Source: Deltaproteobacteria bacterium
Lineage (GTDB): Bacteria > Desulfobacterota > DSM-4660 > Desulfatiglandales > HGW-15
Assembly: GCA_019310485.1 (NCBI GenBank)
Contig: JAFDEF010000006.1
Coordinates: 1 to 64,000 of the forward strand
Length of the DNA: 64,000 nucleotides
Direction of reading: 5' to 3'
The notes under the pieces are model-generated. The model had not been told where the DNA came from. It saw only the letters and a program-made list of their open reading frames with translations, and made no database searches. Both the position numbers and the translations under genes were made by a program. How positions within the stretch are numbered: position 1 is the first letter of the stretch; each line of letters begins with the position of its first letter. This document shows positions 247 to 17,444 of this stretch, piece after piece.

Positions 247-933
247 TTATCCTGTGATGAGAATGTCGTGTGATTTTGGGCCGCAATTAAACAGGAGGTC
301 AAACGCGGAAAGGTTGGGCAAGAAATTCCCCCAGAGTTGAGGGTATACGGGAGAGGGTGGTTTGAAAAACTCGATGGTTATGCCCTCTTGTTGAAACATT
401 CGGAGATCAAGGTACTTTTTTGCAGACGCCTGTGCTAAGAACTGCGAGGCTCCAAGCCTTTTACATATCTTGATAAGTCGTTTATTGCCGGTTTCATTTA
501 TTTGCAATTCGGAGAGCATCACAATCTTTGTTTGGATCTGGAGATGCTCGAGCAGGTACTTGATGACTCTCATATTGAAATCTATCAGCCTTTCAACTTG
601 CTGTGAAAACAATTCTTGGAGGAAACCCAAGTGTTGATGGAAGTATGGAGCCCTGGCATATGCACTCTTTAAACTCCCGAGATGCTTTTTTGGCCAGCGT
701 CCCTCGTAATATATTCTCACTTCGTTTATCCGCTGCAAGCCAAGCCCTTTTTTCCATACCGGAATGGTCATCCACAGCGTGCCTTGATCGTTTTTGAAGC
801 GATTCCTGGATATCCAGGTCGTTCCTCTGGGAAATTGAACCTCGTCCAAAATAACGAACACGTCTGAGAGATGGGCTTTGAAAAAGTATCCCGGAAACGG
901 AGCAAAATAAGGCTGGGAGGCGGAAAGGATCAT
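247..933 (-). CDS. WbqC family protein
   Basis: About 228 residues. The N-terminus (ILSASQPYFAPFPGYF) and the following LDEVQFPRGTTWISRNR stretch are typical of the WbqC family, found in O-antigen and glycan modification clusters and thought to form or transfer modified sugars; the exact reaction is not established. I placed the start at the ATG at 933 because family members begin with this QPYF block. Reading further upstream would add about 78 proline- and serine-rich residues and overlap the neighbouring deacetylase gene on the same strand. The Shine-Dalgarno sequence is weak. The gene is 115 bp downstream of the deacetylase, so the two could be co-transcribed in a surface-glycan context. 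The family call is good; the function is open. Confidence 0.8.
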   Translation of the reverse strand: MILSASQPYFAPFPGYFFKAHLSDVFVILDEVQFPRGTTWISRNRFKNDQGTLWMTIPVWKKGLGLQRINEVRIYYEGRWPKKHLGSLKSAYARAPYFHQHLGFLQELFSQQVERLIDFNMRVIKYLLEHLQIQTKIVMLSELQINETGNKRLIKICKRLGASQFLAQASAKKYLDLRMFQQEGITIEFFKPPSPVYPQLWGNFLPNLSAFDLLFNCGPKSHDILITG

Positions 934-1048
934 ATCATTTAAATAACCAAAACTGGATCTGGAAATGAAACCATTATCATCCAAAGCGTAACTTATTTCA
1001 AGGTGAGGGAAGAAAAATGGATTAAGGTCAGGCGGTGTTGGCGGCGGA

Positions 1049-1834
1049 TCACTTGGAAAGGACGAGGCTTGAAATATGTACAAGTTTAATATTTGAATGT
1101 TTGATGTCTTCTCCGAGGAAGAGGCCAATGGCACGCGCTGTTTCCGGGAAAGGGTGACCAATTGCAATGGAATGGCCGTATTTCAAAGCGATTTTTTTGA
1201 GGCGTCTTAGTTGATTAAGGATATCAGGGAGATCAAGGCGGTTATCCAGAAAGATATTCCTTGCAGCAGACGGGATGTGAAGTTTCCTGGCGGTCTTGTA
1301 ACCTTTAGACCTGTTGGTGGTGAGGCTATCAACAAAGAAAAGGCCGTTTCCCTTCACTATTTCAAGCGCCTCAAACATCTCGCGCTCGCACGCGGTGAAT
1401 CTGGACCCCATGTGGTTGTTTACGCCTTTTGCAAACGGCACCGCAGATATGTTCTCTTCCAGAACCTTTGTGATTCTTCCGGGTGCATCTCCTGCATAAA
1501 GGGCGCCCGGCCCGGGGTTAATGCGGGAGTCAATTGGCTCCATTGGCTGGTGGAGCATTATTTCGTGGCCTTCTGAGTGTATCTCAAACGCGAGTTTTTC
1601 CGACCAGGAGAGTCGGGGCAAGACAGCAAAAGTGATAGGGGCGCCTAATTCCAAGAACTGTCTAGCCCGACGGACGCTGCACCCGATATCATCAATGATC
1701 AAGGCGATGCAGGGTTGAAGGAGGGAGGTTTTGTAATTTTCATTGCAGGCAAAGGCTCTAGAAAAGGTATTGAGCCCAAGGAGGCTTCCCATGAGAAAAG
1801 AGGCGCCCCTAACAAGAAATTTCCTTCTATCCAT
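1049..1834 (-). CDS. divergent polysaccharide deacetylase (DUF610/YibQ-like)
   Basis: About 261 residues. It opens with DRRKFLVRG followed by a hydrophobic run, which looks like a twin-arginine (Tat) export signal, so the mature enzyme is probably periplasmic. The mature part carries LIIDDIG (the metal-site Asp of the NodB-like fold), LHQPMEP, and NNHMGSRFT, hallmarks of the divergent polysaccharide deacetylase family. Proteins of this type act on polysaccharide or peptidoglycan-linked substrates, but none that I know pins the substrate here. The ATG at 1834 directly precedes the twin-Arg motif; an in-frame ATG seven codons upstream is also possible. The gene precedes the WbqC-like gene on the same strand. 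Confidence 0.82.
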   Translation of the reverse strand: MDRRKFLVRGASFLMGSLLGLNTFSRAFACNENYKTSLLQPCIALIIDDIGCSVRRARQFLELGAPITFAVLPRLSWSEKLAFEIHSEGHEIMLHQPMEPIDSRINPGPGALYAGDAPGRITKVLEENISAVPFAKGVNNHMGSRFTACEREMFEALEIVKGNGLFFVDSLTTNRSKGYKTARKLHIPSAARNIFLDNRLDLPDILNQLRRLKKIALKYGHSIAIGHPFPETARAIGLFLGEDIKHSNIKLVHISSLVLSK

Positions 1835-2362
1835 TAATTTTCGCTTTTCTTCCACTATCCGCCTTCAGAAGGAAATATCCCCAAATTTGTAACTTATGCC
1901 ACAAATACAACAAATTGGGTAGCTTGTCAAGTAAAAATACAATATATTGTATAAGTATTGTAAATAACTGACATTCTGAGTCAAAAAAATTTACATAAAG
2001 CCTAGTAGGGATACAAAAAGCTGACCACATCATGTTGTGGCGCTCCTTTCCCTTGCCATGGGCGGCAGCACACTCTCCTTTTCGCGCTTCCAGGGGCAAG
2101 AAAGTTACGAATGGCAAGTGACAAGTAACAAGAAGATCTAATGCTGGCATGGCTATGGCACCCGATGCCGCCGCCAGCGGCTAGCGAGGGACGGACATGA
2201 AGCCTTTTCTGAGTGACCGGCGGGAGGGGGGCGCTATTTTTGTGACTTGTGAGTCCTAACTTGTCACTTTCTTCTGCGGAGAGGATTGAGTTCTTTTCTT
2301 TAAGCATGTTTTGTTGTAAGGGTAAGAACGCTGTGGATTAAGAATTGCGAAAGGGAAAATAG
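1835..2362. other. gene-free region between divergent genes
   Basis: No credible gene. The AT-rich left half carries a perfect 12-bp palindrome, acaatatattgt, at 1939-1950, a plausible regulator site or part of the deacetylase promoter. The right half contains an 11-bp inverted repeat, AAGTGACAAGT at 2116-2126 and its complement at 2259-2269, enclosing a GC-rich segment. Minus-strand open frames here have composition unlike the neighbours and no start signals. The promoter of the glycerate kinase must lie near 2300, but I cannot identify convincing hexamers. Confidence 0.5.
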
Positions 2363-3724
2363 ATGTCAGGCAAAGACAGGGAGCTACTCGGTAAAATGCG
2401 CTCAGAAGCTGTGGAGCTTTTTAATGCTGCTGTTAAAAGGGTTGATCCATACGAGGCTGTGAGAAATTTTGTACGCTTGAGGCAGGGAACGCTTATTTTG
2501 GGACATGGTGATCAAGCGGAGGTAGAGCTGGAACTCGACTCTTTCGATCGCATCTTCGTTGTTGGGGGCGGCAAGGCTACGGCGCCAATGGCAAGGGCTA
2601 TCGAGGATCTTATGGGCAAAAGGATTGATTGTGGAGTTATAAACGTGAAGTACGGGTTCAAAGAAGAACTCTCTTTTACGGAGATAATAGAGGCAAGTCA
2701 TCCGCTGCCGGATAAAAGAGGGGTGGAGGGAACCGCACAGATTATGGAATTGCTCGAAAAGGCAGGTGAAAATGACCTGGTTTTCTCCCTTATATCAGGG
2801 GGTGGATCTGCCCTCATGCCCTATCCTGCCAATGGCATCAGCCTGGAGGAAAAGCAGGCAGTGACAAGGGAACTTCTTGAGTGCGGTGCCAGCATTGATG
2901 AAATTAATGCCATCCGCAAGCACATTTCCCAATCCAAGGGAGGGCAGATGGCAAGAGCGGCTTTTCCCGCAACAACTGTCAACTTGATGCTATCTGATGT
3001 TGTGGGGGATCGCATGGACGTCATTGCATCAGGGCCCTTTGTTCCCGACAGGAGCAGCTTTCAAGATGCCTGGGCGGTTTTGAGGAAGTACGAGCTAAAG
3101 GATATTCCTGCTTCAATCAAAAGATACCTTCAAGAGGGTAGGGAAGGCAAAGTCCCTGAAACTCCCACTCAAGGGGACCCGATATTTGAGAAGGTTTATA
3201 ACTTTATTGTAGGAAGCAATATACTTGCGCTAGAGGCTGCGAAAGAAGCGGGGGAAAGAATGGGGTACCAATGCCTGATTCTCTCATCAATGGTGGAAGG
3301 TGAAACAAGGGAGGTGGCAAAAGTGCATGCAGCCATAGCAAAGGAAATCCTGAAAAGCGGTCGGCCACTTAATCCGCCTGCCTGCATCATCTCAGGAGGT
3401 GAGACAACCGTTACCATTCACGGACATGGCCTTGGAGGGCGAAATCAGGAATTTTGCCTTGCCTGCGCTCTTGAGCTTGAGGACTTGCCTGCTCGCGTGG
3501 TTATTCTGAGCGGAGGGACTGACGGAAATGATGGGCCCACTGATGCTGCAGGGGCCATGGTGGATCCCCTTACCGTGGAAAGGGGAAAATCGCTGGGACT
3601 GGATGCCTCTTCATTCCTTGAGGAGAACGACTCCTATCACTTTTTTGAAAAAACGCGTGATTTGCTGATAACCGGCCCTACCAGGACGAATGTCATGGAT
3701 GTCCGGCTCGTGCTAGTCAGGTGA
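2363..3724 (+). CDS. glycerate 2-kinase (GckA/MOFRL type)
   Basis: 453 residues, the usual length for the class II glycerate kinase family (once annotated hydroxypyruvate reductase). Visible are VVGGGKAT (about 67-73, with the conserved Lys), SHPLPD (112-117), SGGGSAL (145-151) and, in the C-terminal MOFRL domain, SGGTDGNDGPTDAAGA. The enzyme phosphorylates D-glycerate with ATP, normally to 2-phosphoglycerate, in the cytosol. Its 3' end overlaps the convergent glycosyltransferase gene by 12 bp. The next three genes probably make a glycerate-containing osmolyte, so this kinase may salvage or control the glycerate pool when the solute is degraded; that link is inferred from position only. The start ATG has only a weak upstream GAAAGGGA. 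Confidence 0.9.
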   Translation: MSGKDRELLGKMRSEAVELFNAAVKRVDPYEAVRNFVRLRQGTLILGHGDQAEVELELDSFDRIFVVGGGKATAPMARAIEDLMGKRIDCGVINVKYGFKEELSFTEIIEASHPLPDKRGVEGTAQIMELLEKAGENDLVFSLISGGGSALMPYPANGISLEEKQAVTRELLECGASIDEINAIRKHISQSKGGQMARAAFPATTVNLMLSDVVGDRMDVIASGPFVPDRSSFQDAWAVLRKYELKDIPASIKRYLQEGREGKVPETPTQGDPIFEKVYNFIVGSNILALEAAKEAGERMGYQCLILSSMVEGETREVAKVHAAIAKEILKSGRPLNPPACIISGGETTVTIHGHGLGGRNQEFCLACALELEDLPARVVILSGGTDGNDGPTDAAGAMVDPLTVERGKSLGLDASSFLEENDSYHFFEKTRDLLITGPTRTNVMDVRLVLVR

Positions 3725-4945
3725 GGGTTTACTTTCCATCCACTTCTTTACAAAGTAAGGTTTTGTCATCTCAAATGTCATGCAGTCTTCCTCTATGGTT
3801 TCTTCAGCCTGACGGGTAGACATTCTCTTGGTCTTTTTCACAAAGGAAAAGGTTCTCCCAAAGTAAAGGGGAATCAACGAATCCATCATCAGGTCATGGT
3901 CGCAAACACGGTCGCGGTAGCTGATGGCCGTTTCATAGAGAATCCTTGCCCACATCTGGGTGGGGAAATTAAAAACTTTTCTCTTCATACCTTTTATCTC
4001 ATGAAGCTTGTTAAAAAGCTCTTTTGGTAAGATGTTCTCCCAGACCTCCCTGTAATCATTGAAGCCGTCATGGAAATTCTGGATCAATTTTTCCGTATCC
4101 ACTTCCACTTTCGGCGGCATTTCAACTTCTCCGAGCCCAAAGCCGTATATTGCCGTGGGCTTGCTGTACTTGACCTTGGTCCAGTAAGATTCAAAATGGC
4201 AGGCCAGGGAAAAGATAGTTCCGACAACTTGCCTGAACATGGGGCCAAGGGCAGCGGCCGGGTCTTTTGCCCTGTGGATCTTGGGCCTTCCCATAAAAGA
4301 CTGGCAAATCGGGACATTTTGATTGAGGGCAAGGGTTGTCATCCAGATGTCGATTCCGAAGTTGGCCACAGCTTCATCCCATATTTTGCTTTCCAGGTAA
4401 ACCTTTGCCATTTCACCGCTAAAGCCGAAATCGCCTCCTATGGGCTGGCGAACTCTTCTTCCGTAAAGAGCACGAGAAAGCGGGTATGCTATATTGTTCG
4501 TTATGGTTCCGTCATACTTGTGCCTCACATACAGCGGGGCTACATAGGAGAAATCATTGAAAAGGGGCTCCCCCAGATGCTTTATCCACTCAGGTGTAAT
4601 GCTTTTGAGGTCGGCATCAACGACAACGATTGCCTTTGCTTCGAGTTCAACTATTTTTCGAAACAGGTTCCTGAAGTTATTACCCTTGCCTTTGACGCCT
4701 GGTGGAGTGGAAATATAGATTTTCGGTATTTCAGTGGGCGTGTCCAAAAAGACTTGCTTGGTATTGTCAGGAGAATTGTTGTCGCAATTAATGATGACCG
4801 ATGCGGTGTGGGAAAAATATTTGGCCAGCCCCTTGCTTGCCTGGCGCGTGGGAAAAGCAATGGAGTCAGACTCATTGTAAGAGGGGATACTTACCACGAG
4901 GTCAGCCTTTTGCACTTTTTCGGGATTAACTTCCGCTTCAAACAT
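3713..4945 (-). CDS. glycosyltransferase, probable glucosylglycerate or mannosylglycerate-type synthase
   Basis: 410 residues with a GT-A fold layout: SIPSYNE (19-25), the nucleotide-sugar loop KGKGNN (85-90), the metal-binding DAD (110-112) in VVVDADLKSI, and the acceptor motif IGGDFGFSGE around 168-177. These are seen in GT2/GT81-like enzymes that join a sugar to glycerate or 3-phosphoglycerate. It is the last gene of a minus-strand trio with a phosphoglycosylglycerate phosphatase and a second glycosyltransferase. Two reasonable roles are direct glucosylglycerate synthesis from free glycerate (Persephonella Ggs-like), or addition of a second sugar as in mannosylglucosylglycerate makers such as Petrotoga. 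A good Shine-Dalgarno (AGAAGGAGG) precedes the ATG. The substrate cannot be fixed from sequence alone. Confidence 0.72.
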   Translation of the reverse strand: MFEAEVNPEKVQKADLVVSIPSYNESDSIAFPTRQASKGLAKYFSHTASVIINCDNNSPDNTKQVFLDTPTEIPKIYISTPPGVKGKGNNFRNLFRKIVELEAKAIVVVDADLKSITPEWIKHLGEPLFNDFSYVAPLYVRHKYDGTITNNIAYPLSRALYGRRVRQPIGGDFGFSGEMAKVYLESKIWDEAVANFGIDIWMTTLALNQNVPICQSFMGRPKIHRAKDPAAALGPMFRQVVGTIFSLACHFESYWTKVKYSKPTAIYGFGLGEVEMPPKVEVDTEKLIQNFHDGFNDYREVWENILPKELFNKLHEIKGMKRKVFNFPTQMWARILYETAISYRDRVCDHDLMMDSLIPLYFGRTFSFVKKTKRMSTRQAEETIEEDCMTFEMTKPYFVKKWMESKPSPD

Positions 4946-5004
4946 AGCAGGGAGTTCCTCCTTCTGTTCTTTGCCTTACCTTGACCTTGCGCCGTGAAGC
5001 GCTT

Positions 5005-5856
5005 TTATTCAGTCAGCCCACTCAAGATGTCCAGCACTGCGTGGTTCCATCCCTCGGGCCCCGCATGCGTGCTGATGCGCGCGGCAGGGATTTGCTTCTG
5101 CATTTCCACGAAACTGCTCTGGGATCGAATCAATACTGGAAAATCAACAACTCTCAGCATTTCAAGATCGTTTGGGCTGTCACCCAGGGCAATTGTCCTA
5201 ACATTGTACACTATTGCTTTGTACCATGAAATCAATATTCTGACTGCCTGGCCTTTGTCGTTTTTTCCCTGAAGGTGACAAAAGCGGCCTCCGGGGACTA
5301 CCTTGAGTCCCCTTCGCCATGCAGCATGGGAAATGGCTGCAAAATGAGGGCTATTTTCATGGACCAGTATGGGCTCATCAAATTCCCGCATGATTGCCAG
5401 TTTGCAGGCTGATTTGCCAAGCCCTGTTAGACGCGAAATTTCATCAAGGCTCATATTGGAAAACCCGCGTATTTGCAAGCCAAGCTCTTCACGGATCTCT
5501 TTCAACGACTCCACCAGGCGCCAGTAAGGAGTTCCCAGCGAGAGCTTCCAGGTATCCTGAAGATCAAGTGCACCCTCCGGGGGAGGGGCGACACCGGGCT
5601 TAGGGAAGTAGATGGCGCCTCCGTTCTCTGGGATAAATGGGGTAGAAAGTCCCATTTGATGCCGCAGCACTTCCATTTCAGCCCTGGTCTTGCTGGATGC
5701 GAGAATTACGGGTACGCCAAGGCGTTTACAAAGAGCAAGGGCCGGGCCTGCAGGTTTCCAGGTGTAAGAGTGTGGATCCAGCAGGGTCCCGTCGAGGTCC
5801 GTAAATATCACATAAGAAGGGGCATTCGCTTTTTCCGGTTGGTGGGTGTCTTCCAT
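5005..5856 (-). CDS. glycosyl-3-phosphoglycerate phosphatase (MpgP/GpgP-like, HAD superfamily)
   Basis: 283 residues of the Cof-type HAD family, mannosyl-3-phosphoglycerate phosphatase branch. It has the nucleophile motif DLDGTLL (20-26), motif II within ILASSKTRAE (51-60), the conserved PENGGAI (76-82), and the acidic motif GDSPNDLEML near 239-248. It should remove phosphate from glucosyl- or mannosyl-3-phosphoglycerate to give the neutral osmolyte. It sits 5 bp after the glycosyltransferase that would supply its substrate and about 60 bp before the second one, so the three genes look like one operon. The length and all four HAD motifs are intact. Confidence 0.85.
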   Translation of the reverse strand: MEDTHQPEKANAPSYVIFTDLDGTLLDPHSYTWKPAGPALALCKRLGVPVILASSKTRAEMEVLRHQMGLSTPFIPENGGAIYFPKPGVAPPPEGALDLQDTWKLSLGTPYWRLVESLKEIREELGLQIRGFSNMSLDEISRLTGLGKSACKLAIMREFDEPILVHENSPHFAAISHAAWRRGLKVVPGGRFCHLQGKNDKGQAVRILISWYKAIVYNVRTIALGDSPNDLEMLRVVDFPVLIRSQSSFVEMQKQIPAARISTHAGPEGWNHAVLDILSGLTE

Positions 5857-5861
5857 TCAAG

Positions 5862-7241
5862 CTATAGCCTTCCCTTTTCAGCAAAATGCCTTTTCTCATT
5901 TTCCACGGCCTCGATCAAGTCATAATAGATTCTGGGCAGCTTGTTTGACACCCTTTCCCAGGACACGGTCTGAGGTGTTTCAAACACGCTGGCACCAGCC
6001 TTTTCCTCAACCGACATTATAGCATCTGCAAGCCCTTGCTCCAGGAAAGGTTTGAACTCCGGGTAAGTGTTCACCAGCCTCAAAAATTTCTCCGTCATAC
6101 GGTAGGGGGAAGTGAGCAGGTCGCCTGCGTAAAGGATTGAATTGCGGAAAACGTTTCTTACCATGGACTCTTCTGCGTCGCGATCATATTTCAGGTTGCT
6201 GAAATCAGCGTCGTCGGAGTATTTCTTGATTTGTTCTTCGGCTACGGCCTGGTAAGTAATGGCAAGGTCCCTGAAAAAGGTGTCCGATATCTCCAGCCCT
6301 TCTTCGATAACAAGCGCGTTCATAAGAGTTGTTACTATGTCGACGGCCATACGGTTAAGCCCCCGCGTTTTATCATCTTCAGATACTTCCTGGTGCTTGT
6401 GGTCAAACGGCTGTTGGGCGAACATTACCTGGGCTGCCGAAGACGCCTTCCTGTAAACCTCAATAAGGGTAAATATCTCTACACCCCAGTTGGTGGCAAA
6501 GCGCATTTTTTTCAAAAGATCCACGTGGAAGGCAACTTCCCCGGAGAGCTGGTAGTGGAACCCGAGCAAGAAATCTATAAGCCTGAGCATTCTTTCTTCC
6601 TTGCTCTCAGTGAACTTTCTTTTTAGGGAAAGGAGCAAGGGGTCGAGAAGCAGGCGTTTTACTCTTCCAAACAGTTCTCTTTCTCGGATTCTGGCATAGT
6701 AGGCCTTGGAAAAGTCGTAGTTCAGCACCACCACAGGGTAGAGAAGCCTCTCCAGTTGAACTCGCCTGAAAGTGCGTATGTCGGCATCAATGAGCCCCAC
6801 AGACTCTGCCCCCAGGGCTATGGCAATCCCGAAGCTCAGGAACATGTTCTTGCCCTTCCCGGGCTCTTGAATGTTAAACCCGGCCTCTGCCAGTGATTTG
6901 TAAATGTTGCTAAACCGGGGTCCGTCATTCCACTGGATGATGTAATTCTTGATTCCGTAATCTTTGAGCATGGCCTCCAATTGAAAGGCGTGCTGTTCTG
7001 TAGCACCATCAAGGCCAAAGATGATGCTGGAAAGATACTTGATGTCGGCAAGGTTTTTCAGAATGTTTTGAAACACGGGCACGTTGTCCGGGTCCGTATA
7101 TTCGCTGGCCAGCAAGGGAACAATCAAGACCGTTTTTTTCCATTTACAATGCAGCCTGAGCTGGCTTCTTAGATGTTTCCGATCCTGGTTGAGAATATGA
7201 AAGGTGGTGATTGCCAGACGATTTTGAGAAAAATCAGACAT
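5862..7241 (-). CDS. glucosyl-3-phosphoglycerate synthase-like glycosyltransferase (GT81)
   Basis: 459 residues. A GT-A catalytic region lies in the first half: VLIVPLLASEY (about 38-48), PGKGKNMFLSFG (127-138) and the metal-binding DAD in GLIDADIRTF (149-158). A long mostly helical C-terminal region follows. This arrangement fits GpgS-type enzymes of family GT81 that transfer glucose from a nucleotide sugar to 3-phosphoglycerate, the first step of glucosylglycerate synthesis. It is the first gene of the trio, has a strong Shine-Dalgarno (GGAGGG) before the ATG at 7241, and a promoter-like sequence about 35 bp upstream. Mannosyl-3-phosphoglycerate synthase activity is an alternative. Confidence 0.75.
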   Translation of the reverse strand: MSDFSQNRLAITTFHILNQDRKHLRSQLRLHCKWKKTVLIVPLLASEYTDPDNVPVFQNILKNLADIKYLSSIIFGLDGATEQHAFQLEAMLKDYGIKNYIIQWNDGPRFSNIYKSLAEAGFNIQEPGKGKNMFLSFGIAIALGAESVGLIDADIRTFRRVQLERLLYPVVVLNYDFSKAYYARIRERELFGRVKRLLLDPLLLSLKRKFTESKEERMLRLIDFLLGFHYQLSGEVAFHVDLLKKMRFATNWGVEIFTLIEVYRKASSAAQVMFAQQPFDHKHQEVSEDDKTRGLNRMAVDIVTTLMNALVIEEGLEISDTFFRDLAITYQAVAEEQIKKYSDDADFSNLKYDRDAEESMVRNVFRNSILYAGDLLTSPYRMTEKFLRLVNTYPEFKPFLEQGLADAIMSVEEKAGASVFETPQTVSWERVSNKLPRIYYDLIEAVENEKRHFAEKGRL

Positions 7242-12377: not shown

Positions 12378-13460
12378 ATGAATTTTGTCGTTGGAATTTT
12401 GTTTTCAGGCATTGCAATGATCATACTCATTCTGATTCCATGGGTAGGGGTGGGAGCTTTCGATTTGCGCCTTGTTTTTGGAATAATTGTTCCCTACCTG
12501 GCCCTTGCCACATTCTTTGTGGGGATTGTCCTTCGGGTCATCAACTGGGCACGTTCACCCGTACCGTTCAGGATCCCTACAACCGCCGGACAACAGTGGA
12601 GCCTTCCCTGGATCAAACCAAACCGCATTGATAATCCAAAGGGAACCGGCGGCGTGGTCGTGAGGATGATATTTGAGGTCCTTTTGTTTCGGTCCCTGTT
12701 CAGAAACACGAGACTTGAATTCAGAAAGGGCCCGAAAATTACATATGAGTGGGAAAAATGGCTATGGCTGGCAGCGCTTGTTTTTCACTATTCTTTCCTC
12801 GTCATTTTTCTTAGGCATTTCAGGTTCTTCCTCGATCCCGTTCCTGCCTTTATCCACATTCTTGAAAGGCTGGACGGCTTCCTGCAGATGGGGCCCTTAC
12901 CGGTGAGCGGCCTGGGGGTACCTGAGGTTTACATCACCGATATGCTGCTTTTGTTGGCACTTCTGTACCTGTTTCTGCGAAGGCTGTATGTACATCAGAC
13001 CCGCTATATTTCTCTCCCTGCAGACTATTTTCCGCTTTTCCTGCTGCTTACTCTGGGGCTTACCGGAGTGTTGATGAGATATTTTCTAAGGGTGGATCTC
13101 ACTGCAGTAAAGGAACTTGCAATCGGCCTGGTCAAGTTTCACCCAAAAGTACCTGAGGGGATCGGTGTAATTTTCTACATTCATCTTTTTATGCTTTGCA
13201 CGCTAATTGCCTATTTTCCCTTTAGTAAGCTTGTGCACATGGCTGGAATTTTCCTGAGCCCCACAAGAAACCTATCCAACAACAGCAGGTTTGTACGGCA
13301 TATTAACCCGTGGAACTACCCGGTTAAGGTTCATACCTATGAGGAGTATGAAGATGAGTTCAGGGACAAAATGATAGAAGCGGGGCTCCCGGTTGAAAAG
13401 ATGCCTGAAAAAGCTGAAGAAGGTGCTGGTGCAAAAGAAGAAGAAGAGAAAAAGGAGTAA
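12378..13460 (+). CDS. dsrM: sulfite reduction-associated membrane protein DsrM
   Basis: 360 residues, an NarI-like di-haem cytochrome b with about five to six hydrophobic segments: residues 1-20, 35-52, the FHYSFLVIFLRHFRFF segment, DMLLLLALLYLFL, FPLFLLLTLGLTGVLMRYFLR and FYIHLFMLCTLIAYFPFSKLVHMAG. Histidines in the last two or three segments are probable haem ligands. The C-terminus is a long Lys/Glu-rich tail. DsrM is the quinone-reactive membrane subunit of the DsrMKJOP complex, which feeds electrons to the cytoplasmic sulfite reduction step through DsrC. DsrK starts two bases after its stop. Confidence 0.95.
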   Translation: MNFVVGILFSGIAMIILILIPWVGVGAFDLRLVFGIIVPYLALATFFVGIVLRVINWARSPVPFRIPTTAGQQWSLPWIKPNRIDNPKGTGGVVVRMIFEVLLFRSLFRNTRLEFRKGPKITYEWEKWLWLAALVFHYSFLVIFLRHFRFFLDPVPAFIHILERLDGFLQMGPLPVSGLGVPEVYITDMLLLLALLYLFLRRLYVHQTRYISLPADYFPLFLLLTLGLTGVLMRYFLRVDLTAVKELAIGLVKFHPKVPEGIGVIFYIHLFMLCTLIAYFPFSKLVHMAGIFLSPTRNLSNNSRFVRHINPWNYPVKVHTYEEYEDEFRDKMIEAGLPVEKMPEKAEEGAGAKEEEEKKE

Positions 13461-13462
13461 AT

Positions 13463-15100
13463 ATGTCCGATTTACCCAAACCTGAAGATCTTGCAAAAGT
13501 AAAGCATCTGCCGCCTATCTGGAAGGGGTGGATGCGCACCCCGGTTGAAATCAGAAGCGGTATCTATTGTTATGGCTCCAAGCCAGCCAACCTTGAATAC
13601 GTGGGTATGCCCAACCCTCGGGAGTGGTCGCCTGTCGATGAGGACTGGAAGCTGCCTGATAACTGGAAACAGATCTTTCTGGATGGTTTGCGGGAACGGC
13701 TGGAGAAATTCAGGTCGTTAAAAATATTTATGGATATCTGCGTGCGCTGCGGTGCTTGTGCCGATAAGTGCCATTTCTTCATAGGCAGCGGTGATCCCAG
13801 AAATATGCCTGTTTTGAGAGCCGAGCTCCTTCGCTCCATTTACAGGAAAGAGTACACGACAGCCGGGAAAATCCTCGGCCGATTTGCCGGCGCAAGGGAA
13901 ATGACTTACCAGGTGCTAAAAGAGCTGTGGTACTACTTTTTCCAGTGCACGGAATGCAGGCGGTGCTCGTTGTTTTGCCCGTACGGGATTGACACAGCCG
14001 AGATAACGATCCTGGGTAGAGAGCTTCTCAATCTTCTAGGCTTAAACACTGACTGGATCTCCGCGCCTGTTGCCAACTGTTACAGGACTGGTAATCACCT
14101 TGGTATCCAGCCTCATGCCTACAAGGACATGATAGATTTTTTCGTTGACGACATCGAGGAAATAACAGGGGTGAGACTTAACCCCAGCTTTAACAGAAAA
14201 GGGGCGGAAATTCTTTTCATTACTCCTTCAGGAGATGTGTTTGCCGATCCGGGGACTTACACGTGCATGGGATACCTGATGCTTTTCCACTACCTGGAGA
14301 ATCTCGGCCTGGACCTTACCTGGAGCACTTTTGCCTCTGAAGGAGGAAATTTTGGCTATTTTACCTCCCATGAGATGGCTAAAAGGCTGAACGCAAAAAT
14401 GTATGCCGAGGCAAAGCGTCTTGGTGTCAAATGGATCCTGGGGGGCGAGTGCGGACACATGTGGCGCGTGATTAACCAGTACATGGACACATTTAACGGA
14501 CCTGCGGATTTCCTTGAAGAACCTGTTTCACCAATCACCGGCACGAAATTCGAGAATGCCAAGACAACCAAGATGGTTCATATCACCGAGTTTACCGCTG
14601 ACTTGATAAAGCAAAACAAGTTGAAACTGGATCCAAGCAGAAATGACAACCTTGTGGTTACGTTTCATGATTCATGCAATCCTGCCCGCGGTATGGGTCT
14701 TCTCGAAGAGCCGAGATATATAATCAAGAACACCTGTAATCATTTTTACGAGATGCCGGATACGACCATAAGGGAACAGACTTTTTGCTGCGGAAGTGGT
14801 GCAGGCCTTAATGCGGGTGAAAACATGGAGCTAAGGATGCGGGGAGGGCTTCCAAGAGCGAACGCGGTGAAGTACGTGCACGAAAAATACGGAGTTAACA
14901 TGATGGCCTGCATATGCGCGATTGACAGGGCTGCTCTGCCCACTTTGATGGAATACTGGGTGCCCGAGGTGGGAATCACCGGTGTTCACGAGCTGGTTGG
15001 AAATGCACTGATTCTGGAGGGAGAAAAAGAAAGAAAAACCGATCTTAGAGGTGAGCCACTCCCCGGGATGGAAGAGGAGGAGGAAGAAGAGAATGTATGA
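13463..15100 (+). CDS. dsrK: sulfite reduction-associated iron-sulfur protein DsrK
   Basis: 545 residues. Two [4Fe-4S] ferredoxin motifs are present, CVRCGACADKC (C93, C96, C99, C103) and CTECRRCSLFC (C162, C165, C168, C172). A heterodisulfide-reductase-D-like CCG domain follows, with GGECGHMWR and, near 410-455, FHDSCNPARGMG and EQTFCCGSGAG. In this family the CCG domain carries the special [4Fe-4S] cluster thought to act on the DsrC trisulfide/disulfide on the cytoplasmic face. A strong AAAAAGGAG ribosome site precedes the ATG. The acidic C-terminal tail (EEEEEEENV) overlaps the start of dsrJ by 8 bp. Confidence 0.96.
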   Translation: MSDLPKPEDLAKVKHLPPIWKGWMRTPVEIRSGIYCYGSKPANLEYVGMPNPREWSPVDEDWKLPDNWKQIFLDGLRERLEKFRSLKIFMDICVRCGACADKCHFFIGSGDPRNMPVLRAELLRSIYRKEYTTAGKILGRFAGAREMTYQVLKELWYYFFQCTECRRCSLFCPYGIDTAEITILGRELLNLLGLNTDWISAPVANCYRTGNHLGIQPHAYKDMIDFFVDDIEEITGVRLNPSFNRKGAEILFITPSGDVFADPGTYTCMGYLMLFHYLENLGLDLTWSTFASEGGNFGYFTSHEMAKRLNAKMYAEAKRLGVKWILGGECGHMWRVINQYMDTFNGPADFLEEPVSPITGTKFENAKTTKMVHITEFTADLIKQNKLKLDPSRNDNLVVTFHDSCNPARGMGLLEEPRYIIKNTCNHFYEMPDTTIREQTFCCGSGAGLNAGENMELRMRGGLPRANAVKYVHEKYGVNMMACICAIDRAALPTLMEYWVPEVGITGVHELVGNALILEGEKERKTDLRGEPLPGMEEEEEEENV

Positions 15101-15479
15101 TGCGGGAAAGATCATAGTGGGGCTTATAATCGGCATTGGCCTGCTCCTGTTTCCTTTTTACTATAACGCTGGAAAAGCTGCCAAGGCACCTGAACCACAG
15201 CTAACGCCCAAGGCAAAAGAGGCCAAGGTTTGCGTGGCGGAAACCTCCTACATGAAAACCTCTCACATGCACCTGCTTGAGAGGTGGAGGCAGGAAGTGG
15301 TGCGTGGGGGAGAGAGGTACTATACCGCGAGCAATGGGAAGGTCTATTACAAGAGTGTTGAAGAGACATGCCTTGATTGTCATTCCAATAAGTCAAAATT
15401 CTGTGACCAGTGTCACGACTACATGCGCATATCTCCCTATTGCTGGGACTGCCATATTGCACCTAAGGAGACCAAGTGA
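15093..15479 (+). CDS. dsrJ: triheme c-type cytochrome DsrJ
   Basis: 128 residues from the ATG at 15093, which follows a GAGGAGGAAG ribosome site and overlaps dsrK by 8 bp. A single N-terminal membrane segment (KIIVGLIIGIGLLLFPF) anchors a periplasmic domain with three CxxCH haem sites: CLDCH (93-97), CDQCH (104-108) and CWDCH (117-121). C47 in AKVCVAE lies where the DsrJ family places the cysteine that serves as an unusual axial ligand of one haem. DsrJ is the periplasmic electron-transfer subunit of DsrMKJOP. The last base of its stop is the first base of the dsrO start (TGATG). Confidence 0.94.
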   Translation: MYDAGKIIVGLIIGIGLLLFPFYYNAGKAAKAPEPQLTPKAKEAKVCVAETSYMKTSHMHLLERWRQEVVRGGERYYTASNGKVYYKSVEETCLDCHSNKSKFCDQCHDYMRISPYCWDCHIAPKETK

Positions 15480-16279
15480 TGGACATTGATAGAAGAAAAT
15501 TTTTAAAAATAGCCGGTCTATCAGCGGTCATGGGAATTGGGGGAAAGGCTGCATTCGAGCTGCTTGCCCCAAAGGAACTGGAAGCTTCGCTAAGGGAAGT
15601 TCCCCTCACTCAAGGAAAGAAATGGGGCATGGTCGTAAACATGGCCAAGATGGATGACGAGATCATGAAGCGGTGCATGGAAGCGTGCAACCGCGTTCAC
15701 AATATTCCGAATTTTGGAGACCCCAGGGTGGAAATCAAGTGGATATGGGAAGAAACTTATGAACACAGCTTCCCGGGGCAAGAGCATGAATACATCGGAG
15801 AAAAATATCTGGGGAGGAACTTCCTTCTGATGTGCAACCATTGCACAGACCCCCCATGCTGCAGGGTGTGTCCTACAGGAGCCACATGGAAAAGAGAAGA
15901 CGGTATTGTGATGATGGACTGGCATCGTTGCATCGGCTGCCGGTTTTGCATGGCAGGATGTCCGTATGGCTCCAGGAGCTTCAACTGGGGAGATCCGAGG
16001 AAAGCGCCCAAGGAACTTAACCCGGACTTCCCCACGAATCGCGATTACCCGACAAGATCAAAAGGGGTCGTGGAAAAATGCACCTTTTGTGATGAAAGGA
16101 TCGCCAGAGGACAGATTCCTGCCTGCGTGGAGGCTGCTAACGAGATAAGAGAAGGGGCGCTGGTGTTTGGAGATCTGGATGATCCTGACTCAGATATAAG
16201 AAAAGTCCTGAGGGCCCATTACAGTATTCGGCGCAAACCGGAACTGGGCACCGGACCCAATGTTTATTACATAATATGA
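15479..16279 (+). CDS. dsrO: periplasmic Fe-S protein DsrO
   Basis: 266 residues. The N-terminus DIDRRKFLKIAGLSAVMGIG is a classical Tat signal. The mature protein carries ferredoxin-type cysteine groups: CNHCTDPPCCRVCPTG, CIGCRFCMAGCPYG and CTFCDERIARGQIPAC, plus an upstream CMEACNRVHN, consistent with several [4Fe-4S] clusters as in NrfC/HybA-like proteins. DsrO works in the periplasm between cytochrome DsrJ (and probably cytochrome c3) and the NrfD-like DsrP. It is translationally coupled to dsrJ and lies 7 bp before dsrP. Confidence 0.95.
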   Translation: MDIDRRKFLKIAGLSAVMGIGGKAAFELLAPKELEASLREVPLTQGKKWGMVVNMAKMDDEIMKRCMEACNRVHNIPNFGDPRVEIKWIWEETYEHSFPGQEHEYIGEKYLGRNFLLMCNHCTDPPCCRVCPTGATWKREDGIVMMDWHRCIGCRFCMAGCPYGSRSFNWGDPRKAPKELNPDFPTNRDYPTRSKGVVEKCTFCDERIARGQIPACVEAANEIREGALVFGDLDDPDSDIRKVLRAHYSIRRKPELGTGPNVYYII

Positions 16280-16286
16280 GGGAGTT

Positions 16287-17444
16287 ATGCTTGATAAAGC
16301 GCTAAAAGGAAGTGCGACATACTGGGGGTGGTTGTTATTCCTGCTTGCATTTATTGGGGTTGGCTTTGGATGCTACCTGTACCAATTTTCTGAAGGGTTG
16401 CGCATAACGGGCATGAGCAGGGATGTTTCATGGGGTTTTTACATAGGACAGTTTACCTATCTTGTCGGCGTAGCGGCATCCGGAGTCATGGTTGTCTTGC
16501 CTTATTATATTCACAATTACAAGGCGTTTGCCAGAATCACCATTTTGGGAGAATTCCTGGCTGTCTCTGCGATTGTCATGTGTGGGCTCTTTATTTCGGT
16601 GGATCTTGGGTACCTTCCCAGGGTCATGAACATAATTTTGTACCCCCACCCGAATTCCATCCTGTTCTGGGATATGATTGTTTTAAACGTGTACCTCCTG
16701 CTGAATATCTTTATAGGATGGAATGTCCTTAGCGCAGAAAGAAAAGGTGTTCACTATCCGAAGTGGATCACCCCTTTGATTTACATATCAATTCCGTGGG
16801 CCTTCAGCATTCATACTGTAACGGCGTTTCTTTACGCCGGCCTCCCGGGCAGGCACTTCTGGCTAACAGCTATTATGGCGGCACGGTTTCTGGCCTCGGC
16901 GTTTTGCTCCGGTCCCGCCTTGCTGATTCTCTTGTGTTTCATTGTGAGGAAACTATCCAGGTTTGATCCCGGAAAAGAACAAATCAGGACACTTGGCGGC
17001 ATTGTCGCTTATGCAATGATACTCAATGTGTTTTTCTTCCTCCTTGAGCTCTTTACGGCATTCTACAGCCGGATACCTGAGCACATGCACGCTATCGTAT
17101 ACCTTTTCTTTGGCCTTGAAGGGCACACAAGGCTTGTGCCGTGGATGTGGGGAGCCACCGTATTTGCTGTGATAGCACTTGTGCTTCTTATTATTCCGCA
17201 GTTGCGCCGACGCGAGGGCATACTTGCCATAGCCTGCGGCTCGGTAATTGTGGCTACGTGGATTGATAAGGGCTTGGCCCTGGTTGTCGGGGGTTTCATA
17301 CCAAATCCCTTTGACAGGATCTTTGAATACTGGCCCACGACCCCGGAGGTCTTCATCTCTCTCGGGGTTTATGCAACGGGATTTTTTGTGCTTTCTGTAC
17401 TCTACAAGATTGCGGTCTCTGTTAAGGAGGAAGTTGCTGCCTGA
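16287..17444 (+). CDS. dsrP: NrfD-like integral membrane protein DsrP
   Basis: 385 residues with about ten transmembrane segments, beginning YWGWLLFLLAFIGVGFGCYLYQF and ending FISLGVYATGFFVLSVLYKI. It belongs to the NrfD/PsrC family, which binds quinol without haem. In the Dsr complex DsrP exchanges electrons between menaquinol and periplasmic DsrO/DsrJ. It is the last gene of the dsr operon (ribosome site GAGGGAG). No clear terminator follows directly; the next gene is a ferredoxin 158 bp downstream. Confidence 0.95.
   Translation: MLDKALKGSATYWGWLLFLLAFIGVGFGCYLYQFSEGLRITGMSRDVSWGFYIGQFTYLVGVAASGVMVVLPYYIHNYKAFARITILGEFLAVSAIVMCGLFISVDLGYLPRVMNIILYPHPNSILFWDMIVLNVYLLLNIFIGWNVLSAERKGVHYPKWITPLIYISIPWAFSIHTVTAFLYAGLPGRHFWLTAIMAARFLASAFCSGPALLILLCFIVRKLSRFDPGKEQIRTLGGIVAYAMILNVFFFLLELFTAFYSRIPEHMHAIVYLFFGLEGHTRLVPWMWGATVFAVIALVLLIIPQLRRREGILAIACGSVIVATWIDKGLALVVGGFIPNPFDRIFEYWPTTPEVFISLGVYATGFFVLSVLYKIAVSVKEEVAA

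Follow-up and report, generated by a model that had tools for sequence, protein, structure and literature searches.

We examined a 64,000-nt stretch from the draft genome of a Deltaproteobacteria bacterium of the order Desulfatiglandales (contig JAFDEF010000006.1, positions 1 to 64,000; hereafter the window), in which four adjoining genes at positions 2,363 to 7,241 probably direct the synthesis and turnover of a sugar-glycerate. Two glycosyltransferases, here called GT1 and GT2, form a three-gene unit on the minus strand with an HAD-type phosphatase (HAD) between them, and a glycerate kinase (GK) faces this unit from the plus strand. All four open reading frames (ORFs) are full-length with ATG starts, and the gaps within the unit measure 5 nt (GT1-HAD) and 59 nt (HAD-GT2). 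Reading the ORFs bore out the gene positions given in an earlier sequence-based annotation (the original prediction), as well as its description of GK as convergent with GT2 and overlapping it at the 3′ end. The features are as follows.

5862..7241, minus strand: GT1, glycosyltransferase related to GpgS, 459 aa, opening the three-gene unit (ORF 7241-5862)
6657..6659, minus strand: codon of GT1 Lys195, aligned with Thr187 of Mycobacterium tuberculosis GpgS
5005..5856, minus strand: HAD phosphatase of the mannosyl-3-phosphoglycerate phosphatase family, 283 aa (TIGR01486 and 3ztw matches)
3713..4945, minus strand: GT2, Ggs-like glycosyltransferase with a predicted mannosylglycerate synthase (MGS) fold, 410 aa (model, VIA, tree)
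4499..4504, minus strand: codons of GT2 Ile148-Thr149, equivalent to MGS Ile138-Thr139
3713..3724, no strand: 12-nt overlap of the GK and GT2 3′ ends (from the coordinates; unconserved in relatives)
2363..3724, plus strand: GK, glycerate 2-kinase (DUF4147 + MOFRL), 453 aa, convergent with GT2

Structural evidence was obtained for GT2. An AlphaFold2 model built from 46 window and scan sequences reached a pLDDT of 93.6, and VIA on this model placed mannosylglycerate synthase 2y4m far first (Z 36.5 over 353 residues, root-mean-square deviation 2.9), followed by GpgS entries at Z ~20–21 over 220–230 residues. GT2 thereby shares its full-length fold, and an Ile-Thr pair, with the MGS of Rhodothermus marinus (GT78; 2bo4, 2y4m), although the two proteins are only 18% identical and GT2 scored 21.4 bits against Pfam MGS_GT, below the cut-off of 27, so that membership of GT78 is not indicated by this test. 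Sequence searches returned MGS from the PDB at E 2e-5 and a weak match to PRK13915 GpgS (41 bits). The Ile-Thr pair aligned to both MGS and GpgS structures, and among the type-B rows, as we term those with at least 62% identity to the window GT2, Ile148 was present in 33 of 34 and Thr149 in all 34. In structural work on MtGpgS, the carboxylate of 3-phosphoglycerate contacts the Val186 nitrogen and Thr187, whose MGS equivalents, Ile138 and Thr139, take part in D-glycerate binding (PMC2581804). Judged by its residues, GT2 thus appears to have kept the free-glycerate pocket of MGS. A quick-search tree of 101 rows put the window protein in a 34-row clade (84), sister to a clade of 60 rows (95*), those of Aquificota and Thermotogota among them; the characterised Ggs presumably lies within the latter. 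The model and tree lead us to describe GT2 as a putative MGS-fold, Ggs-like transferase of a sister clade, and possibly a Ggs proper. Identification of the window GT2 as MggA or MggS was rejected because its fold is GT-A and MggS belongs to GT4.

The remaining three proteins were assigned to families by profile and PDB searches. HAD exceeded the cut-off of the ‘MPGP family’ subfamily model TIGR01486 (242.2 bits against 164.75), scored below that of the MPGP equivalog TIGR02461 (207.5 against 244.35), and matched the T. thermophilus MpgP 3ztw in the PDB at E 3.7e-33. GK contained PF13660 (DUF4147, 285 bits) and PF05161 (MOFRL, 137 bits), both above cut-off, stayed below two NCBIfam equivalogs (NF041176, 236 of 550 bits; NF040791, 211 of 670 bits), and matched PH0495 1x3l at E 5.4e-101. 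GT1 shared with the GpgS proteins (GT81) of mycobacteria and methanogens the catalytic Lys129 (GKG), Asp152 and Asp154 (DxD), Glu235 (xLxGE) and His281, and its profile alignment matched GpgS at E 8e-21. A PDB sequence search with GT1 gave a sole match, the R. xylanophilus MpgS at E 0.11. The predicted model of GT1 was poor (pLDDT 63.7, top PDB match E 0.02); its PDB matches were discarded as meaningless, and we draw no fold evidence from it.

The set is conserved, and its genes are linked beyond chance. Among 61 genomes of relatives, the window's own included, we found matches to GT2 in 56, to GT1 in 54, to HAD in 54 and to GK in 47. Type-B GT2 occurred in 53 of the 61, with HAD as a neighbour in 33, GT1 in 30, GK in 25 and all three in 16. 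We attribute this linkage to more than chance because 28 of the 53 have both HAD and GT1 adjoining on the same strand and 25 have a convergent GK. The GT1-HAD-GT2 unit stood without an adjoining GK in 12 genomes, eight of which carry GK elsewhere, and 15 of the 53 type-B GT2 genes, mostly in the family labelled f4, had none of the three neighbours. Two genomes from this order encode ~1212-aa proteins (L053: 5271-8909; L054: 3220 onward) whose N-terminal domain is GT2-like and whose C-terminal domain, scanned in L053 only, resembles GH130 mannoside phosphorylases.

A closely comparable arrangement exists in the Hydrogenothermaceae (the family of L076). Among 31 genomes drawn evenly, a GT2 match was present in 20 and full-length in 16, and the 12 readable loci (L137, L139-L149) comprised ten HAD-GK-GT2-GT1 operons and two GK-GT2-GT1 runs without adjoining HAD. 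In one of these genomes, G072, the four families lie in one operon and its GT2 is the sole match in the genome; G072 is presumably Persephonella marina EX-H1, and its GT2 and the neighbouring gene are presumably the published Ggs and GpgS. P. marina (GpgS/GpgP plus Ggs) resembles the window in having the HAD, GK, GT2 and GT1 families, which G072 and its relatives join in a single operon, whereas in the window GK is convergent and outside the operon, and GT1 carries Lys195. A second, canonical set in one of the 61 relatives (G014, L065) forms a single operon in the order HAD′-GK′-GT2′-GT1′, to which the window genes are ~35–40% identical and which is itself 52–67% identical to that of G072. The parallel with Persephonella drawn in the original prediction, and its view of the locus as one for a glycerate-based glycoside, were upheld by the recurrence of the same four families in 10 of 12 Hydrogenothermaceae operons and by the MGS-fold, Ggs-like character of GT2. 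The window locus is an order-wide variant of this known four-family set.

We also scanned one genome each for 84,980 species with a two-part GT2 DNA motif, limited to A+T-rich codons to avoid flooding by near relatives, and obtained 48 stretches that form a biased sample and no census. A GT1 relative was present in 11 of them, HAD in six and GK in six, with all four genes together in three (L098 and L119, both Bathyarchaeota, and L112). Genome-wide searches that covered the sources of 46 loci (all except L079 and L120) turned up GT1 relatives in 4 of 10 genomes in one set and 26 of 36 in another.

We consider it likely, at a probability of roughly 0.7, that the locus encodes the synthesis and probable turnover of a hexosyl-glycerate, alpha-glucosylglycerate (GG) being the most probable one. 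With a nucleotide sugar as donor, GT1 would glycosylate an acceptor of the phosphoglycerate type, and HAD would remove the phosphate from the product, as in the GpgS-GpgP route; GT2 would join a nucleotide sugar to D-glycerate directly, in principle reversibly, as in the Ggs route; and GK would convert D-glycerate to 2-phosphoglycerate, returning it to glycolysis. Our data directly support the gene identities, the GT2 fold, the conservation and linkage, and the catalytic residues. The substrates, the sugar, the direction of GT2 and the role as a compatible solute are what we infer. In two relatives (G013 and G015), the second GT2 lies near an ADP-glucose-pyrophosphorylase-like gene, named by reading the sequences. 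A canonical GT1-GT2 pair is divergent from such a gene, likewise named by reading, at L057: 4679-8873 and L063: 5290-9557; these two loci give a hint of ADP-glucose as donor.

Several findings weigh against a plain GG pathway, the first of them from GT1 itself. Against the NCBIfam equivalog GpgS_Meth (NF040724), GT1 scored 226 bits over residues 3–380, far from the cut-off of 700, compared with 716 bits for the Methanolobus vulcani protein at L102. The position of Thr187 is Lys in 20 of 20 type-B GT1 rows and in 3 of 3 from outside the order, compared with Thr in 22, Phe in 3, Val in 2 and Cys in 1 of 29 canonical rows (in a residue-state table that lists four states at most, none of them Lys). 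On the genomic side, the genes are scattered in family f4, a MOFRL-type GK is missing from 4 of the 28 full-cluster genomes (G017, G018, G021 and G043), and of the 45 genomes with a GK, 20 have it unlinked to GT2. The window's own genome has type B alone and, because canonical GT1 and GT2 are absent, would have no backup for GG synthesis should type B make something else. As to the compatible-solute role put forward in the original prediction, a set so nearly universal in the order may instead make a core metabolite and not a solute reserved for stress.

The GT1 findings bear on the description of GT1 as GpgS-like in the original prediction, which holds for the kinship and the retained catalytic set but must be narrowed, as GT1 has a mean identity of only ~34% to canonical GpgS-like rows, is longer (459 aa) than the GT81 proteins, and has the invariant Lys at the acceptor site. 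P. marina GpgS is reported to be ~24% identical to Rv1208 (PMC2674218). Because the M. vulcani protein above the NF040724 cut-off carries Phe at this position, Thr187 seems dispensable for a GpgS. We therefore regard GT1, from its residues, as a probable GpgS relative and not a plain GpgS, whose substrate is less certain because an invariant Lys replaces the acceptor-binding Thr of most canonical relatives.

It is accordingly possible, if clearly less probable than GG, that the type-B set makes another or larger glycerate glycoside, either with a hexose other than glucose or in the form of a disaccharide-glycerate such as mannosylglucosylglycerate (MGG) or glucosylglucosylglycerate (GGG), GT1 being altered in its acceptor or donor. 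In matched loci, at a threshold of 0.85, type-B GT1 differed from the canonical form at 22 of the 92 columns conserved within both groups and GT2 at 10 of 99, and this unequal change, together with the invariance of Lys195, would suit a new product. So would the 27 genomes that carry a second, more distant GT2 (39–55% identity) beside type B and the 16 that carry both GT1 kinds, given that redundancy is unlikely. An MggS-family GT4 match was found in 26 of the 61 genomes, the window's own included; however, none of the 61 reached the cut-off, and the matches extend to a genome (G051) without GT1, GT2 or HAD. The glycerate pocket retained in GT2 likewise speaks against a changed product. An earlier count of fixed differences (18 in GT1 against 3 in GT2) was dropped for its unequal row sets and replaced by the matched-loci count, and a type-B GT1 stem of 2.82 was set aside because the tree behind it was a quick one whose branches are long.

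The MGG pathway deserves separate mention, since the original prediction also drew a parallel with Petrotoga. GG is the acceptor of MggS, and the Petrotoga study reportedly described MggA, MggS and Ggs. We found GT2 homologues at six Thermotogota loci, at one of which, in Pseudothermotoga (L118), an RpiR-type regulator and a member of the MggS family (405 bits; cut-off 640) come after GT2, a neighbourhood that speaks for GG as the GT2 product. The window locus differs from the Petrotoga/Thermotoga pathway (Ggs, MggS, MggA) in having no GT4 gene, and a GT1 relative was found at E 1e-5 in none of the six Thermotogota genomes chosen for their GT2 homologue. Among the six window proteins scanned, none matched the MggS model NF041101 (cut-off 640). 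The Petrotoga parallel does not hold for the two window transferases, neither of which is a GT4 enzyme like MggS. An MggS-family relative is present elsewhere in the genome (contig C68, best score 237 bits, below the cut-off of 640). This relative, which scored 237–244 bits with its next NCBIfam match at 23.5, is the first gene of a tandem GT4 pair (G000:C68:18862-21149; L150: 8719-11378). A role for GT2 mainly as a second transferase, from GG to GGG or MGG, was weakened by the six GT2-bearing Thermotogota without a GT1 relative and by the retained glycerate pocket. MGG itself has been reported in Petrotoga and in the mesophilic Rhodopirellula baltica (PMC3694870).

GK might instead be a housekeeping neighbour of serine or glycerate metabolism that ends against GT2 by chance, which we regard as quite unlikely. 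The unlinked copies and the four full-cluster genomes without GK would suit this view, as would the overlap, which is replaced by a gap of 2 to 467 bp in the other 24 GK-bearing places. However, all 25 linked copies lie within 470 bp of a type-B GT2, on the opposite strand and convergent, and three genomes (G004, G009 and G016) keep GT2 and GK together where GT1 and HAD are absent. GK also sits inside the HAD-GK-GT2-GT1 operons of the Hydrogenothermaceae and of G014, adjoins GT2 in Bathyarchaeota, Paceibacterota and one further bacterium of the cross-phylum scan, and accompanies GT1 in two further genomes, one of Desulfofervidaceae, in which it forms a run with HAD and a canonical GT1, and one of Syntrophaceae, in which it converges on a type-B GT1. 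A strict partnership of GK with GT2 was rejected at the same time, as GK adjoins GT1 without GT2 elsewhere and is missing from four full clusters. The Syntrophaceae GK (L162: 8732-10041) is split over two frames, one after the other, that match at 60% and 36%, and may be broken or mis-assembled.

Very unlikely, finally, is a role of the transferases in priming a longer chain, for example a cell-surface glycan or a polysaccharide of the methylglucose type whose reducing end carries glucosylglycerate: GpgS initiates the mycobacterial methylglucose lipopolysaccharide (PMC2674218), and a WbqC-like protein and a divergent polysaccharide deacetylase (window 247-1855, ends overlapping) adjoin the locus and recur near it in several f1 relatives, but none of the 12 Hydrogenothermaceae loci has a neighbour matching either of these two among the listed queries, and an MpgP-family phosphatase and a glycerate kinase suit a free small molecule.

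Returning to GG as the probable product, we considered how it might be broken down. In the window's own genome, no match was found at E 1e-10 to the GH13_18 model TIGR03852 or to PF22422 (MGH1-like), which we take as the GG hydrolase model, an absence that is unproven in a draft ~5% incomplete (3.64 Mb, 94% complete). The recycling of glycerate by GK proposed in the original prediction thus remains plausible, but these two sinks were not found to feed it. Among the 61 relatives, TIGR03852 matched in 22 and PF22422 in 10; TIGR03852 matched in none of the 16 GT2-bearing Hydrogenothermaceae, with one weak match among the 43 genomes searched. The known GG sinks are a GH13_18 phosphorylase and a glucosylglycerate hydrolase (PMC7178133, PMC11009771), and genes for GG phosphorylase are reported to occur often together with those for glycerate kinase, GpgS or GpgP (PMC7178133).

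Because neither of the sink families searched for was found in the window's own genome, there is room for GT2 to work backward. We tentatively propose, by analogy, a glucosylglycerate cycle in which GT1 and HAD would synthesise the solute, GT2 would mainly run in reverse (solute + nucleoside diphosphate (NDP) to NDP-sugar + D-glycerate), and GK would salvage the glycerate. The analogy is with bacterial sucrose sets (sucrose-phosphate synthase, phosphatase, sucrose synthase or amylosucrase, fructokinase), which share the same logic: synthesis takes two steps and starts from a phosphorylated acceptor, a further enzyme works with the free acceptor, and a kinase takes up the acceptor once it is released. 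It is an analogy alone, as their enzymes and product are unrelated to those of the window. In two published sucrose gene sets, a synthase of the phosphate route occurs together with a fructokinase and an enzyme that acts on the free sugar, and one of these sets was termed ‘sucrose synthesis and degradation/reutilization’ (PMC4463540, PMC11046441). GT2 would then correspond to sucrose synthase and GK to fructokinase, and the four genes would fit the sucrose-set logic one for one. If true, such a cycle would account for the Persephonella-type ‘two routes’ to one product and for the glycerate kinase that shares their operon, as well as for the missing GH13_18 match in the window's own genome and in the 16 GT2-bearing Hydrogenothermaceae.

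The surroundings of the locus bear on the nature of its host. The proteins DsrM, DsrK, DsrO and DsrP (dsrM, dsrK, dsrO, dsrP) are encoded at window positions 12378-17444, and because each exceeds its own NCBIfam cut-off, the assignment of the host as a sulfate (or sulfite) reducer is well founded. Upstream of the locus lies ruvCAB, named by reading the ORFs, and the same placement recurs in relatives. An Rfam scan of the window gave no matches. Elsewhere in the genome, on contig C68, an inositol-3-phosphate synthase gene adjoins one for a fused inositol-1-phosphate cytidylyltransferase/phosphotransferase (L150: 3104-5528; NF041135, 306 bits, cut-off 580), a pair that could supply inositol lipids or, alternatively, a solute resembling di-myo-inositol phosphate.

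Most of what is known about sugar-glycerates comes from mycobacteria, methanogens, marine cyanobacteria and a small number of thermophiles, and none of the titles listed in our literature searches reports the locus from Desulfobacterota or sulfate reducers. If nearly all members of a sulfate-reducing order carry the set, these compounds would be an ordinary part of metabolism in anoxic sediment, and the set would provide a marker for them. The type-B GT1, with its fixed acceptor-site Lys, may use a new acceptor or donor, and the reversibility of GT2 offers a way to test why a single operon should hold two parallel GG routes.

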